Part shown: positions 15,440 through 21,917 of the stretch, in pieces
Layout: each line of letters opens with the position of its first letter
Position numbering within the stretch: the first letter of the stretch is position 1
NCBI GenBank assembly: GCA_900019385.1
Contig: FIZJ01000011.1
Span: forward strand, 68,006-132,005
Direction: 5' to 3'
Source of the DNA: an uncultured Clostridia bacterium
GTDB taxonomy: Bacteria > Bacillota > Limnochordia > Darwinibacteriales > DTU012
Length of the DNA: 64,000 nt
Translations under genes and position numbers: made by a program
The notes under the pieces: model-generated
The model's database searches: none
Told to the model about the DNA's origin: nothing
What the model saw: the letters and a program-made list of their open reading frames with translations, nothing else

Positions 15440-16282
15440 ATGCGGAAAATAGGCCGGGTGGTCCGGGAGTATCTCGGGGTACTGATTGGTGTGGCTGTCA
15501 CTGCCTTTGGACTGACATGGTTTTTGATTCCCGGCCGCATTGCCGCGGGAGGTGTCAGCGGGCTGGCCACTGTCGGCTATCATTTGTTTGATCTGCCGGT
15601 GGGGCTGACCATGCTCGTTTTGAACATACCTCTTTTTGCCGCCAGCATTACTGTACTGGGAGCGGTGTACGGCGCCAAAACCTTTATCGGCACCATTGTC
15701 CTGTCTGTGCTGGTTGATGTGTTTCAGCGGTGGGCTGTGCCTTTGACTTCCGATCCCCTGCTGACGGCGGTCTACGGTGGTGTGATTACCGGTATTGGCT
15801 TGGGAATCACATTCCGCTCCGGCGGCAGCACCGGGGGCACAGACATGGCGGCCCAACTGGTGGCTCATTTTCTGCCCACCACCGTGGGCAGGGCGCTTCT
15901 GTTTGTAGATGGTTTCGTCATTCTGATGGCGGGCTTCGCGTTTGGCCCTGAACTGGCCTTGTATGCCCTGTTGGCCGTATTTATCTCCACGAAGACGGTG
16001 GACCTGGTCCAAGAAGGGCAGAGCTATGCCAAAGCGGCATTCATCATCTCCGATCATTCCGACAAAGTGGGAGAGCTGATCCTAAGCCAATTGGAGCGGG
16101 GTGCCACCGCGTTGGCGGGCAAGGGCGTTTATACCGGCACTGAGCGGGAGGTTCTGTTTGTCATTGTATCCCGTTCGGAAATCCGAACCCTGTGCCGTCT
16201 GGTGAGCGAGATCGACCCCAAAGCGTTTGTCGTGATCAGTGATGTCCACGAAGTCTTGGGTGAAGGCTTCAAGAAATTGTAA
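15440..16282 (+). CDS. YitT family membrane protein (DUF2179)
   Basis: This 280-residue protein has about five to six membrane helices in the first 190 residues, including GLTWFLIPGRIAAGGVSGLA near 25 and the conserved FRSGGSTGGTDMAAQL near 122. A cytoplasmic DUF2179 domain (about 195-280) contains ERGATALAGKGVYTGTEREVLF, which follows the family pattern. The transported substrate of YitT proteins is not known. The gene abuts tagA and is followed by a new promoter at 16313. Confidence 0.9.
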   Translation: MRKIGRVVREYLGVLIGVAVTAFGLTWFLIPGRIAAGGVSGLATVGYHLFDLPVGLTMLVLNIPLFAASITVLGAVYGAKTFIGTIVLSVLVDVFQRWAVPLTSDPLLTAVYGGVITGIGLGITFRSGGSTGGTDMAAQLVAHFLPTTVGRALLFVDGFVILMAGFAFGPELALYALLAVFISTKTVDLVQEGQSYAKAAFIISDHSDKVGELILSQLERGATALAGKGVYTGTEREVLFVIVSRSEIRTLCRLVSEIDPKAFVVISDVHEVLGEGFKKL

Positions 16283-16312: not shown

Positions 16313-16341
16313 TTGTGTCACTGGGATGATTGTTCTATAAT
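16313..16341 (+). promoter_or_regulatory. Promoter of the FtsX-like/M23 fusion gene
   Basis: TTGTGT (16313-16318), 17 bases, then a consensus TATAAT (16336-16341). The expected transcription start is near 16348, so the palindrome at 16361-16376 falls just inside the transcript, a typical repressor position. Confidence 0.7.
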
Positions 16342-16360: not shown

Positions 16361-16376
16361 ACTAACATAAGTTAGT
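16361..16376 (+). promoter_or_regulatory. Palindromic operator candidate, copy 1
   Basis: ACTAACATAAGTTAGT is an inverted repeat with ACTAAC and GTTAGT arms around ATAA. Its exact reverse complement is found at 34946-34961 ahead of the outer-membrane protein gene. It lies about 13-28 bases after the predicted transcription start and about 7 bases before the ribosome-binding site. The cognate regulator is unknown. Confidence 0.55.
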
Positions 16377-16391
16377 GAAAGGAGTTAGATT

Positions 16392-18008
16392 ATGAACCTC
16401 AAAAAGGACATTCCAGTGTTGGTATTCCTTATTCTGATCATGGCCACTGCCGCCGCGGCGGCTTTCATATTGAACGTGATCACCGGGAAAATGCTTGAAC
16501 AAAGTATGATCCGGGCCTTTGCCGAGCCTGGCCGATCCGCCGGCGGTATAGCCCGGCAGATCGAAGGGCTTGACGGTGTGATCAGAACTGAAACTATCGA
16601 GCAGGATCAGGCGGCAGCCGAATTCGAAGCCGCCTTGGGATATCCCTGGCCGGGAGCAGATCCGCTGCCCGGCTATGCGGACGTGATTGTGGAACCGGGA
16701 CAGGCGGCAGCGGTCTTGGAACACATGGAGAAGATCTCGGGAATCGAGTATGCCGCTTATCATCGGGACAGGATGGAACAGCTTGCGGATCTTGTCGAGA
16801 ACTTGCGCCTGGTTCAGAGCCTGCTGCTGCTGTTGGGTGCAGGCGCGGCTGTTGGATTGGCCTGGAGGGCGGCTGCTTACTGGAAGCGGTTCCGCCTCGG
16901 CCGAGCCCGGCTTGTTATGGCTGTGATCCTGTCCACAGTGTTGATCATGTCCCAAGCCGCAGCGGCCCAGTCCCCCACCGAACTTAGACAGGCCTATCGG
17001 GAAGCGGAAAATGCCCTTGCCGAACTGCAAAAAGAATACACTCAGCTGGAAAAAGAGGCCGGCGGCCTGGAGGCAGAGATTGCGGCGGAAGAAGAAAACC
17101 ACGCCGGCAAGCTGTCTGAGCAAAAGCAGGTTGAAGCGGCCTTGATACAATCTGATGACGAGATCGACCGGCTGCAGCAGCGGATCGCCCGCATCCAGCA
17201 GGAGAACCGCGAGCAGTCGCGGCACTCTGGACATGCCTTGACACGGCTGCAGGAAGCAGCCAGACTGGCGGCTCAAGGAATGGTGCAGCATGACGCCGAA
17301 GCCGCCTTGTTTCTGGATTATTTGGTTCTTGCCAGCGGAAAAGCATACGCGGCCGCCGATGCCGGTTTGAGAAATCGTCAGATCCAGGAACAGGAACTGG
17401 CGCGGCAGCTCAAAGCGGTGGAACAGGAGCGGGAACAGCTGAGGGGGCAGCTTGCACAGCTGAAACAGGAAGCGGGGCAGATCGCCAAGGCTCTGGCGGA
17501 CCAAAAAGAAAAGCTCACCCAGGTGCGACAGAAACTCTCCGCCGTACAGCGAATGATTTATACACAGGAAAGCAGAGTCTGGCGTGGAAAAAGGGAGCTC
17601 AGGCAAAAACTCGGCTTCACTGATTTTGTCTGGCCGCTGGCGGTGAAAGGTGTGGTCTCCTCCGACTACGGCCTGCGGTTCCATCCCATCTTCAATGAAG
17701 AACGCTTTCACACAGGTGTGGATCTGGCCTGTGAATCTGGTGTTCCCATCAAGGCTGCGGCGGACGGCACCGTTGTTCTCAGCGAGGATCATGGGGGATA
17801 CGGCCTGGCAGTGATCATTGATCACGGTGGAGGTGTAAGCACACTGTACGGCCATGCTTCCCGACTGCTGGTCCAGGCCGGAGATCGAGTCAAGGCCGGT
17901 GAAACCATTGCCCTTGTCGGTTCAACCGGTTTGAGCACAGGCCCCCATTTGCATTTTGAAGTCCGGCAGGATCAACAGCATGTCGATCCTTGGATTTGGT
18001 TGAGTTAA
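16392..18008 (+). CDS. FtsX-like extracellular domain fused to EnvC-like M23 murein hydrolase (activator)
   Basis: The 538 residues have three parts. Residues 1-170 resemble the first half of FtsX: a TM helix (8-28), an extracytoplasmic domain with ISGIEYAAYHRDRMEQLADL near its end, and a second TM helix (about 138-155). Residues 175-195 form a third hydrophobic segment (LVMAVILSTVLIMSQAAAAQ) like the signal peptide of a free EnvC-type protein. Residues 197-405 are a long coiled coil. The C-terminus is an M23 domain with HTGVDLACE, STLYGHAS and GPHLHFEV, so the zinc ligands look intact. Normal genomes have ftsE-ftsX-envC here, and no ftsE is visible. The ctpA and minJ-like neighbours support a divisome role. 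AAAGGAG precedes ATG 16392. Confidence 0.8.
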   Translation: MNLKKDIPVLVFLILIMATAAAAAFILNVITGKMLEQSMIRAFAEPGRSAGGIARQIEGLDGVIRTETIEQDQAAAEFEAALGYPWPGADPLPGYADVIVEPGQAAAVLEHMEKISGIEYAAYHRDRMEQLADLVENLRLVQSLLLLLGAGAAVGLAWRAAAYWKRFRLGRARLVMAVILSTVLIMSQAAAAQSPTELRQAYREAENALAELQKEYTQLEKEAGGLEAEIAAEEENHAGKLSEQKQVEAALIQSDDEIDRLQQRIARIQQENREQSRHSGHALTRLQEAARLAAQGMVQHDAEAALFLDYLVLASGKAYAAADAGLRNRQIQEQELARQLKAVEQEREQLRGQLAQLKQEAGQIAKALADQKEKLTQVRQKLSAVQRMIYTQESRVWRGKRELRQKLGFTDFVWPLAVKGVVSSDYGLRFHPIFNEERFHTGVDLACESGVPIKAAADGTVVLSEDHGGYGLAVIIDHGGGVSTLYGHASRLLVQAGDRVKAGETIALVGSTGLSTGPHLHFEVRQDQQHVDPWIWLS

Positions 18009-18118: not shown

Positions 18119-19318
18119 ATGAAACGCCGAATCGCAATCCTGGGCGCAGCCACGATACTTCTGGTTGCGGCATTGATATATGGATCAGTCCTGTTCACTG
18201 TTGGCGGTGAACAGACAGCAAGAGCCGGAGACTTGGAAAACTTGCTGGAAGTGGTGGCCTTGGTCCGGTCGCGCTTCTACAGGCAGGTTGAGGTGGCGGA
18301 TCTTCTCGACGCCTATGCCCGCACCGGGAGTATTCAAGGTATGCTGGCGGAAGCGCTGGAAGACCCTTACACACGGCTGATGGATCAGCATGCCTATGAG
18401 AGCCTGATGAGCGACACCAGTGGGGTGTTCGGCGGAATCGGCATCGTGATCGGGATTCGCGACAGCGAACTCACCATTATTTCTCCTATCAAAGGCACGC
18501 CCGGCGAGCGGGCCGGACTGCGGGGAAATGACAAGATTATCAGGATCGGCGAGCGAAGCACCGAATTCATGACCACTGACGAAGCCGCCAGCCTGATGCG
18601 GGGTGAGCCGGGCACGGAAGTGACCATCACCATCCGCCGGGACGACGAAGAGTTCGATGTCACCATTATCCGGGATATCATTAACGTGATGTCCATCGAA
18701 GAAGTAGAAATGATTGGGCAGGGCATCGGCTATATCCGCCTGACCAGTTTTTCCGACCGGACGTATCATGAACTGGTGTCGGCCTTGAATCAGCTGGAAG
18801 CCGAGGGTATGGAAGGACTGATTCTCGATCTGCGCTTCAACCCAGGCGGCACTCTGGGCGCGGCGATCCAGGTGGCTGACGAGTTCATCGCCAGCGGGCC
18901 CATCGTTTACCTTCAGAACCGCAACGGCGACCGAGTCAGCTGGGATGCGTTGGAAGAAGGGACCAGAAAACCGATTCCCATGGTGATCCTGGTCAACGGC
19001 TCGAGTGCCAGCGCTTCCGAGATTGTCGCCGGGGCTCTCAGGGATCACGGCCTCGCTGTGCTGGTAGGGACGCAGACATTCGGTAAAGGCCTGGTTCAGA
19101 CTGTGGTGCCGCTCCGCGACGGAGGAGCCCTCAGCCTTACCGAGCAAGTCTACCTCACTGCCGGAGGGCATGACATCAACCGTTCCGGGATTGAACCTGA
19201 TTATGTGCTGGAAATCAGTGACGAAGAGCTGGAAGCCATCTTCTTGGGCGAGGCCGACGTGGATCGGCAGTTGGAGATGGCAGTGGAAATCATTACCGCT
19301 CAGATTAAAGGAGAATAA
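18119..19318 (+). CDS. ctpA: S41 family C-terminal processing protease (CtpA/CtpB)
   Basis: This 399-residue secreted serine protease has an N-terminal signal-anchor (residues 5-24), a PDZ domain (about 95-180, with GGIGIVIGI and GTPGERAGLRGNDKI), and the S41 catalytic domain. The Ser-Lys dyad is visible as NGSSASASEIVAGAL near 296 and GTQTFGKGLVQT near 320. In Bacillota the homolog often follows ftsEX and an EnvC-like gene, as here. Substrates may include its PDZ neighbour or the fused hydrolase, but that is inference. A TATAAT-like -10 sits at 18091-18096. Confidence 0.95.
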   Translation: MKRRIAILGAATILLVAALIYGSVLFTVGGEQTARAGDLENLLEVVALVRSRFYRQVEVADLLDAYARTGSIQGMLAEALEDPYTRLMDQHAYESLMSDTSGVFGGIGIVIGIRDSELTIISPIKGTPGERAGLRGNDKIIRIGERSTEFMTTDEAASLMRGEPGTEVTITIRRDDEEFDVTIIRDIINVMSIEEVEMIGQGIGYIRLTSFSDRTYHELVSALNQLEAEGMEGLILDLRFNPGGTLGAAIQVADEFIASGPIVYLQNRNGDRVSWDALEEGTRKPIPMVILVNGSSASASEIVAGALRDHGLAVLVGTQTFGKGLVQTVVPLRDGGALSLTEQVYLTAGGHDINRSGIEPDYVLEISDEELEAIFLGEADVDRQLEMAVEIITAQIKGE

Positions 19319-19365: not shown

Positions 19366-20619
19366 GTGGGTAATCTGCCAAAAGTACTTGCATTGTTGGT
19401 CCGGCTGCTGCCGTATATCCTCCTTGACCGGTTTTATCTCATGCTCCTGGCGGCACTGGGCTTGATCATTCACAGCCAATACCGGCGGGTCTATCTCATG
19501 CAGCAGCGGCTGTTCGGTCTCAACAGAGGCGTTCCGTGGCGGGAGACCTTGGTCAGTCTCGGCTACGGCCTGCTGGGGGGCATTGTCGCCAGTGTGCTTT
19601 TTGTGATGCTGGGGATCACCCTGTCAACCACCGGGGTTTTCTTTGTGTGGGTGACAGCTTTGCTGTTGATGCTCGTCAATCCCCGCTTTTTATGCTTTGC
19701 ATACGCCGGTTCCATCGTCAGCCTGGCGCATCTGATCACCGGGTATCCGGAAATCAGTGTCACATCGATCATGGGCTTGGTCGCCGTCCTGCATCTGGTG
19801 GAAGCCCTGTTGATCTTCTTGAACGGGCACCGCAACCCCATGCCCATCTACATTCAGGACAGCGAAGGCAAGGTGGTGGGCGGATTCAGCCTGCAGCGGT
19901 TCTGGCCGCTGCCGTTCATTGCCGTCCTGGCCATTGTGGAATCAAGCCCTGCCCTAGAATCGGCCATAACCATGCCTGACTGGTGGCCGCTTCTGAAGCC
20001 GGATCTTCTGGTCCCGGCAGGTTTGGCCTTGGTCTACAGGCTGTCGCCGGTCTTTGCCGGGCTCGGGTACAGTGATCTGGCCATCTCCAGCCTGCCCGAA
20101 ACCAAGGCGGCCCATTCAGCCAGGAATCTGTTTCTGTACAGTATAGCGCTGCTGGGGCTGACGGTGCTGGCAGACCGCCATCCAGGCCTGGAACTGATCC
20201 CCGTCTTGTTCGCCCCCTTGGGGCATGAATTAGTGATCCGACTCGGGCAGCAGCGGGAAAAGAAGCGTGCTTCGGTCTTCACCTACAGCGATGGAGTCAT
20301 GGTCCTGGATACCTATCCCAATTCACCGGCGGCCAGAATGGGTTTGTCGACGGGAGACGTGATCCTTAAGATCAACGACATCGACATCACCAGCCCGCAG
20401 CAGTTGATGGCGGAAATCGGCCCGTGGATCATCGATCCCACCCTTGTGGTCCAGAATGTGATTGAAAAAAGCCCGCCGCGGCGGATCAAGTTCAAAGGCA
20501 AGATCCCGCCTTTGGGGTTTATTCCGGTACCCCAACCGAACCAGCCTGTCTACATGGTCTTCCGTGAAGGCTGGCTCAGGCGCGCCATCAAGCAGTGGTG
20601 GCGGAAGCTGAAGAGGTGA
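19366..20619 (+). CDS. PDZ-domain membrane protein, MinJ-like
   Basis: The 417-residue protein has about eight hydrophobic segments in residues 5-300 and a C-terminal PDZ domain (about 300-385, containing YPNSPAARMGLSTGDVILKINDIDI). B. subtilis MinJ, which links MinD to DivIVA at the septum, has the same layout and lies near ctpB. The homology is suggested by architecture and synteny rather than strong sequence motifs. The start is GTG 19366, with GGAGG 8 bases upstream. The basic C-terminus (WRKLKR) ends just before the deacetylase gene. Confidence 0.7.
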   Translation: MGNLPKVLALLVRLLPYILLDRFYLMLLAALGLIIHSQYRRVYLMQQRLFGLNRGVPWRETLVSLGYGLLGGIVASVLFVMLGITLSTTGVFFVWVTALLLMLVNPRFLCFAYAGSIVSLAHLITGYPEISVTSIMGLVAVLHLVEALLIFLNGHRNPMPIYIQDSEGKVVGGFSLQRFWPLPFIAVLAIVESSPALESAITMPDWWPLLKPDLLVPAGLALVYRLSPVFAGLGYSDLAISSLPETKAAHSARNLFLYSIALLGLTVLADRHPGLELIPVLFAPLGHELVIRLGQQREKKRASVFTYSDGVMVLDTYPNSPAARMGLSTGDVILKINDIDITSPQQLMAEIGPWIIDPTLVVQNVIEKSPPRRIKFKGKIPPLGFIPVPQPNQPVYMVFREGWLRRAIKQWWRKLKR

Positions 20620-20624
20620 AGTGG

Positions 20625-21917
20625 ATGCAGCGCAAATCTAAGCCTGTGCGTTATACATGGTCCGCCGCTTTGATTGCGGCCTGCTGCTTTTTGAGCATTG
20701 CAGCGGTTTGGCTTTCCTGGCAAAGACTGACGGCGGAAACGAACGTTCCCGCTATACTGCCGGCTGAGCCGTCGGAACCTGCCCTGGATAGCCTCCTTGA
20801 GCTCCCTCAGGCTGACGATCCGGAATGGGAATACCATGACTTGATCGAGGACAAGCTTGCCTTTACCAAGGATTACCTGGAACAGTGGGGTTATCTGTTG
20901 TTGAACACGGAGGCTGATCCGGAGCAGCGGTTGGTCAAGCTGCTTGTGGTGCCCACCAGTCTCAATCTGGACTTCATCGATATGGTCATCGGATTGGAAA
21001 CGGAACTGTGGAGGCGCCACGGCTGGGCTTTCCGCACCGATTACGTCACCGACGAGGTTGGTGCCTTGATCCAACTCTGGACAGAGCAGTCAGAGGATGG
21101 TGAAATGTTCACAGCCGCCGATCCCGGCAGTAGTTTCGAACTCTGGGTCAAGCAGCTTGCTCCCGGCGACCAGTGGGTGCAAGGAGGGCCGAAGCTGGCG
21201 CTGGTCATTGACGACTGGGGTTACTCATCCCGGTACACCGAATCGTTCCTGCGCTATCCGTTTCCCCTGACTGTGGCCATCATCCCTTACCTGGCCGAAT
21301 CAACCGCTTTGGCTAGGCAGGCCTTTGCCGGCGGCCACGAGGTTATCCTCCATCAACCCATGGAGGCCCTTGGTTCCGCTGTCGAGTTGGGTGAGGGAGG
21401 CATTCTCACGTCAATGGATCCTGAAGAGATCCGCCGCCGCCTGGAGGAGAACATCGCCCATCTGCCGATGATCGCCGGGGTCAACAATCACATGGGCTCC
21501 AAGGTCACATCCGACCCGGAAACCATGGCGGTGGTTCTGGAAACGTTCAAAGCGAACGACCTGTACTTCTTGGACAGCCATACCACTCCTTTGTCGGTGG
21601 CAGGGGCTGTCGCTTCTCAGGTGGGGATTCCCTACGCGGTCAACAGTTTGTTTATCGACAACGTCAATGAGGTGGAAGCAGTCAAGGCTCAGCTGCGGCA
21701 GATCATCAACCAGGCAGTCCGGGCCGGGTCGGCCATCGCAATCGGCCATGTTCGCTCCGCCACAGCCGCCGCCATCTGGGAGATGATCCCCGAGATCGTG
21801 GCTGCCGGCGTCGAGCTGGTACCCGTGTCTCAACTGCTGATCTATCCTGAGCCCAGCCCTCAACCGGAGGAGGTTGGGGGGACAAACCAAGGCGCGGGCT
21901 GTGGATTGGCGGAGTAG
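20625..21917 (+). CDS. Divergent polysaccharide deacetylase (YibQ-like)
   Basis: This 430-residue protein has one N-terminal membrane segment (KPVRYTWSAALIAACCFLSI), an unassigned 150-residue region, and a deacetylase-like domain from about 195. Motifs match the divergent polysaccharide deacetylase family (formerly DUF610): LALVIDDWGYSSR, GHEVILHQPMEA, AGVNNHMGSKVTSD, YFLDSHTT and AIGHVRS. The Asp-Asp and His residues of the fold are kept. A peptidoglycan or wall-glycan substrate is inferred from the location. The start is ATG 20625, with GAGGTGA upstream. The 3' end overlaps the convergent ppa by 58 bases. Confidence 0.85.
   Translation: MQRKSKPVRYTWSAALIAACCFLSIAAVWLSWQRLTAETNVPAILPAEPSEPALDSLLELPQADDPEWEYHDLIEDKLAFTKDYLEQWGYLLLNTEADPEQRLVKLLVVPTSLNLDFIDMVIGLETELWRRHGWAFRTDYVTDEVGALIQLWTEQSEDGEMFTAADPGSSFELWVKQLAPGDQWVQGGPKLALVIDDWGYSSRYTESFLRYPFPLTVAIIPYLAESTALARQAFAGGHEVILHQPMEALGSAVELGEGGILTSMDPEEIRRRLEENIAHLPMIAGVNNHMGSKVTSDPETMAVVLETFKANDLYFLDSHTTPLSVAGAVASQVGIPYAVNSLFIDNVNEVEAVKAQLRQIINQAVRAGSAIAIGHVRSATAAAIWEMIPEIVAAGVELVPVSQLLIYPEPSPQPEEVGGTNQGAGCGLAE

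Follow-up and report, generated by a model that had tools for sequence, protein, structure and literature searches.

Gene content of the locus

The window, a stretch of 64,000 nucleotides from an uncultured Clostridia bacterium, harbors a gene in which an FtsX-derived N-terminal part is fused to an EnvC-like M23 hydrolase (Table 1). A single frame is open without interruption from the ATG at 16392 to the stop at 18008 (538 codons). The parts named in the original prediction, an FtsX half, a third hydrophobic segment, a coil and an M23 domain, were all matched within this frame, and the three hydrophobic segments were located by hydropathy. A sequencing error hiding a stop codon was rejected, as two other species carry the same open fusion. 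The M23 domain (PF01551) comprises residues 438-533 (E 2.4e-36) and contains the HxxxD motif (H440-D444), the catalytic histidine (H488) and the HxH motif (H519-H521). The predicted metal ligands are all present. An intact M23 domain is normal at this gene position in Bacillota, so that an active enzyme would not in itself be unusual. The position of the signal peptide, the antiparallel hairpin and the LytM domain after ftsX correspond to the layout of EnvC/PcsB-type partners. The best structural match of the hairpin and LytM region was EnvC (8tzl_E, Z 17.8). Downstream, the ctpA and minJ-like genes (starting at 18119 and 19366) follow in the usual order, in agreement with the prediction.

Table 1. 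Features of the fused gene and its neighborhood in the window.
Feature	Position	Strand	Basis
YitT-family gene, upstream; left boundary of the slot (empty in most class genomes)	15440..16282	+	
AGGAG ribosome-binding site, 7 nt 5' of ATG	16380..16384	+	sequence reading
Fused gene, half-FtsX and EnvC-like M23 hydrolase, 538 aa	16392..18008	+	same fusion in two other species
TM1, residues 9-27; scarcely any cytoplasmic N-terminus, no FtsX elbow helix	16416..16472	+	hydropathy
FtsX extracellular domain, residues 37-124	16500..16763	+	profile, profile-profile and structural matches
X-lobe region, residues 71-94; shortened, best-conserved part of half-FtsX	16602..16673	+	conservation
TM2, residues 140-158	16809..16865	+	hydropathy and profile-profile comparison
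Third hydrophobic segment, residues 174-192; former M23 signal peptide	16911..16967	+	hydropathy, comparison with relatives
Putative signal peptidase site AAA192/Q193, end of third hydrophobic segment		+	motif; cleavage inferred
EnvC-type coiled-coil hairpin, helices 195-294 and 302-407	16974..17612	+	AlphaFold2 model; EnvC matches 8tzl_E, 6tpi_A
Conserved motif ALFLDYLVLASGKAYAAA, start of second coil helix	17304..17357	+	model and conservation
M23 peptidase domain with H440, D444, H488, H519, H521	17703..17990	+	profile match, alignment
CtpA, S41 C-terminal processing protease; follows M23 in the ancestral operon	18119..19318	+	profile match
PDZ membrane protein, MinJ-like	19366..20619	+	profile match

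The FtsX-derived half

Residues 1-170 are derived from FtsX. The NCBIfam FtsX models NF038347 and TIGR00439 match residues 13-148, with E 1.4e-4 and 4.5e-4 in the whole protein and E 4.6e-5 and 2.5e-5 in residues 1-195 alone. The Pfam model FtsX_ECD remains below threshold in the window protein (16.4 bits, cut-off 23.5 bits) and exceeds the cut-off in seven relatives (25.5-38.4 bits). Profile A1, comprising eight family members, matched the solved FtsX structures 8ymc and 8hd0 across TM1, extracellular domain and TM2 (E 2.7e-8) and all 30 full-length FtsX sampled from other Bacillota (28-69 bits). A profile-profile comparison with full-length FtsX (hhalign) yielded 99.3% over residues 22-168. 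The structure prediction suggested for this region gave the same assignment: FtsX chains are the first Foldseek matches of the AlphaFold2 model (pLDDT 84), which aligns with the EnvC-bound FtsX domain 6tpi_B over 89 residues at 2.6 Å (VIA-align Z 10.6) and with 8i6o_A over 172 residues (Z 9.1). An FtsX-type extracellular domain thus lies between TM1 and TM2 of the window protein. The NPLP-type motif of the X-lobe is present as DPLP in the window and as NPLP in two relatives (L026 and L027). Sequence identity of this part, here termed half-FtsX, to the window is low overall among family members (25-52%).

The homology to FtsX stops about ten residues past TM2 in the profile-profile comparison, and the TM2-TM3 loop, TM3 and TM4 of full FtsX have no counterpart in half-FtsX. 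The TM3-TM4 permease half (PF02687) of a four-TM FtsX is missing; the third segment is the M23 signal peptide. TM1 begins at residue 7-9 in half-FtsX, versus mostly 25-36 in full FtsX. E. coli FtsX touches FtsE with its N-terminal elbow helix and with the coupling helix that links TM2 to TM3; the core of the FtsX dimer is built from TM1 and TM2 (PMC11491553). Experiments on the pneumococcal FtsX support the coupling loop as FtsE-binding site (PMC7468199). Neither elbow nor coupling helix was found in half-FtsX. The comparison with full FtsX shows a loss of both FtsE-contacting elements; the truncation has thus taken away the contacts to the motor and left dimer core and docking domain in place.

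FtsE and full-length FtsX in the host and its class

The host genome (2.17 Mb, 97.7% complete) yielded neither an FtsX_ECD match nor an FtsE above the curated cut-off in profile searches, and no FtsE ATPase is encoded with or near the fused gene. The absence of ftsE and of the remaining ftsX, predicted from the window, thus extends to the genome. Four PF02687 matches were rejected as FtsX because they belong to MacB/BceB-type permeases. The best matches to the FtsE model were rejected as well: they represent MetN (adjoining MetI), a MacB-type pair, a BceA-type gene next to a sensor kinase and a GlnQ-type gene. The original prediction had named two findings that would speak against it, a complete ftsE-ftsX-envC set elsewhere together with a missing structural match, and a hidden stop; neither was encountered. 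The predicted control without FtsE is supported by the FtsX identity of residues 1-170, the loss of ftsE and of the rest of ftsX, and the intact M23 ligands.

Among 73 genomes of the host's class, none yielded an FtsE above cut-off or a full FtsX. FtsX_ECD exceeds the cut-off in seven of them, always in the half-FtsX of the window's family; in the wider phylum, 355 of the 398 genomes sampled have the domain. Weak FtsX_ECD matches in f3 genomes (L056, L057) were identified as CheA-like proteins and rejected. The host's class as a whole appears to manage division without FtsEX. Nearly all class genomes (loci L088-L127) still keep CtpA and the PDZ/MinJ-like gene together despite the loss of ftsE, ftsX and M23; for this reason, the pair probably functions independently of FtsEX.

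Descent of the operon and the fusion event

In other Bacillota, the order of genes is ftsE, ftsX (about 300 aa), M23 protein (375-400 aa), ctpA and PDZ gene. In all 12 sampled loci in which the M23 gene is complete, ftsX lies immediately 5' of it; in most of them, a Walker-A gene precedes ftsX and ctpA-PDZ follows the M23 gene. Gene order and homology show the window locus to be an ftsE-ftsX-M23-ctpA-PDZ operon that has lost ftsE and half of ftsX. In the rest of the class, the slot between YitT (or WecG) and CtpA, checked through the PDZ gene, contained no ftsE, ftsX or M23 gene in the readable loci, G022 excepted. Outside the family, the best M23 matches of the order were rejected as genes of this slot, as they are mostly other M23 genes and not at the locus.

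Half-FtsX has kept its open frame in eight genomes, which belong to four genera. Five of the family's genomes encode half-FtsX (~172 aa) and the M23 protein in separate genes, overlapping by about a dozen bases of the form ATG...TAA, e.g. ATGCGCCGCTTAA in L013. A tblastn match had suggested L013 as a third fusion, which was rejected on the basis of its two separate overlapping open reading frames. The fusion occurs only in the window, G006/L014 and G009/L020; the proteins of the two other species have 538-539 aa and share 59% and 57% identity with that of the window. In a tree of YitT and CtpA, the three fused genomes form one clade (support 1.0), which shows the fusion as a single later event, secondary to the half-FtsX state. 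The fusion had originally been put forward as the surprising step; as five relatives keep separate genes, the motorless half-FtsX takes this place.

In a neighboring family, G022 carries in the same slot an open reading frame of 279 aa on the reverse strand (L062, G022:C81), in which M23 is fused to upstream TM segments. This M23 gene lacks the FtsX extracellular domain and has a short coil, representing one joint loss. A family member with a strongly shortened coil was observed in L076 (G011:C108), where the contig starts just upstream, so that any half-FtsX would lie outside. Extant genomes display a series from full module via half-FtsX, fusion and domain loss to the empty slot.

Docking interface

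E. coli FtsX uses its X-lobe (residues 145-171) to grip the EnvC hairpin where helix I ends and helix II begins (PMC7668044). The best-conserved stretch of half-FtsX is the X-lobe region (residues 73-96, mean BLOSUM 2.8-3.9 per block); apart from residues 113-120, which reach 3.0, no other block exceeds 2.2, and the lowest lie below 0. In the coil, conservation is highest at residues 303-312 (2.9), followed by 313-322 (1.9), at the start of the second helix of the model; none of the other blocks between residues 203 and 402 exceeds 1.7. By analogy to EnvC, the motif ALFLDYLVLASGKAYAAA occupies the position of its second FtsX-binding site (PMC7668044). The coincidence of the conservation peaks on both partners with the positions of the EnvC-FtsX interface suggests a maintained interface. 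Most full FtsX proteins have a longer X-lobe than half-FtsX, and the canonical binding motif of the coil (SYLEVLL..F.DF..R) has changed, so that the binding between half-FtsX and hydrolase may be altered.

Translation product and probable cleavage

The third hydrophobic segment corresponds to the signal peptide of those M23 proteins that are encoded by separate genes, in agreement with its predicted origin. It ends in AAA/Q, AHA/Q and VQA/Q in the three fusions. The fusion junctions of L020 and L021 contain neither an ATG nor a pair of Shine-Dalgarno sequence and start codon; an ATG is present in the window (Met176), with no Shine-Dalgarno sequence evident for it. Most likely, translation yields one primary product. 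In an uncleaved chain, helix I of the coil would start right behind TM3 and extend over ~100 residues, corresponding to ~150 Å by helix rise. EnvC docks to FtsX by the tip of its hairpin, while N-terminus and LytM domain are located at the opposite end (PMC7668044). At ~150 Å from TM3, the tip of an uncleaved chain could reach its own docking domain only with the hairpin lying flat. The sole stretch of the model with pLDDT below 50, residues 184-190, is situated beside the putative cleavage site.

The gene probably encodes a polyprotein that is cut by signal peptidase into half-FtsX and hydrolase. This reading is drawn from the retained signal peptidase-type site, for which the argument uses three fused genomes and motif reading, and from the docking geometry favoring cleavage. 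Cleavage would suit docking better and restore the two-protein state of the relatives. The view of receptor and hydrolase as one polypeptide holds for the open frame; the mature state probably comprises two chains, as indicated by the AxA-type site and the tip geometry. A precedent for such a polyprotein is the fbcH-encoded cytochrome b/c1 precursor of Bradyrhizobium.

Proposed mechanism and alternatives

The locus as a whole is best explained, with a probability of about 0.6, as the reduced remnant of an ftsE-ftsX-hydrolase module with ATP-free docking and a probable polyprotein. The comparison of genomes shows that the ancestor of the family lost ftsE, and that its ftsX was trimmed at both ends to TM1, extracellular domain and TM2. 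Half-FtsX retains the dimer-core helices and the docking domain, without the elbow and coupling helices used in the drive by FtsE. Its dimers most likely still anchor the hairpin of the M23 endopeptidase to the membrane with no use of ATP, and docking in place perhaps biases the autoinhibition of the hydrolase. On-off control would come from elsewhere, e.g. from CtpA encoded next door. CtpA is a candidate regulator because CtpA of Pseudomonas aeruginosa controls wall hydrolases via their degradation (PMC6050968). In the window clade, an indel in the gene overlap would have joined half-FtsX and M23 in frame, turning the M23 signal peptide into a third TM segment with retained signal peptidase site. 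Cleavage would then provide half-FtsX and hydrolase in a ratio of 1:1. ATP-independent membrane docking of an M23 endopeptidase is the most likely function. The module may be drifting toward loss, since most of the class does without it.

The fused protein could also persist uncleaved, as a membrane-tethered receptor-hydrolase with three TM segments that is gated without ATP. The single frame without an obvious internal start in two of the three fused genomes agrees with this unlikely reading, and so does the hydropathy, as three hydrophobic segments describe an in-out-in-out path with M23 outside. Against it, small residues at -3 and -1 before the glutamine are kept in all three fusions, and the docking tip is separated by ~100 helical residues from TM3, with EnvC-like tip docking demanding a flat hairpin. 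That a motorless FtsX domain gates its covalently linked M23 endopeptidase, uncleaved and without any ATPase, is somewhat more doubtful still; if true, it would show that wall hydrolysis can be under FtsX-type control with no need for ATP. It is improbable that the gene represents a degenerating relic, in which half-FtsX drifts without a docking role and the M23 enzyme acts alone. The absence of the whole module from most of the class, the low identity of half-FtsX and the situation in G022, where M23 is kept but the extracellular domain and part of the coil are gone, would fit a relic, but the open frame is maintained throughout eight genomes of four genera and conservation is focused at the presumed interface of both partners. 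A drive of half-FtsX by another ABC ATPase of LolD/MacB or BceA type in place of FtsE is very improbable. The host genome encodes many ABC ATPases, yet the best matches to the FtsE model sit with their own systems (MetN-MetI, MacB-type, BceA-type with sensor kinase, GlnQ-type), and half-FtsX lacks both elements for a contact to FtsE.

Comparison with known systems

The window protein shares with FtsEX-EnvC of E. coli, Vibrio cholerae and P. aeruginosa the extracellular FtsX fold with X-lobe and a partner composed of hairpin and LytM domain. It differs in the missing FtsE, elbow helix, coupling helix, TM3 and TM4, in the gene fusion and in its intact M23 ligands, whereas E. coli EnvC is inactive. 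The Bacillota operon ftsE-ftsX-M23-ctpA-PDZ has the same gene order apart from ftsE and a homologous M23 protein of similar length; in the window family, ftsE is absent, ftsX is cut to about 172 aa, and ftsX and M23 overlap or are fused. Direct binding of an active hydrolase to FtsX by a coiled coil is known for PcsB (Streptococcus pneumoniae), CwlO (Bacillus subtilis) and RipC (mycobacteria) (PMC7668044). The window protein resembles these systems in the coiled-coil hydrolase partner of FtsX, its binding being predicted by analogy. PcsB, CwlO and RipC are CHAP or NlpC/P60 enzymes and require the FtsE ATPase, in contrast to the M23 enzyme without FtsE in the window. SweD and SweC of B. subtilis are likewise small membrane proteins of an FtsX-hydrolase pathway, but have a single N-terminal TM and intracellular functional domains and are not described as FtsX homologues (PMC6705773).

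A search mainly of open papers found no prior description of a half-FtsX or of its fusion to a hydrolase. The motorless half-FtsX kept with its hydrolase, and fused to it in one clade, appears to be new as far as the open literature shows. In the current view, FtsEX acts as a mechanotransmitter powered by ATP. A lineage with the docking half only separates docking from motor action and offers a natural direct test of the contribution of the FtsE ATPase.

Flanking sequences

Between the PDZ gene and uvrB (window 20595-21917), a divergent polysaccharide deacetylase-like protein is predicted, assigned from its own sequence only; such a gene is absent from the canonical uvrB-containing operon sampled (L158). 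A promoter scan upstream of the fused gene gave no supported promoter. An inverted repeat around ACTAAC-ATA-AGTTAGT is located at 16361-16376, between a TATAAT box (16336-16341) and the ribosome-binding site of the fused gene, and is possibly an operator.
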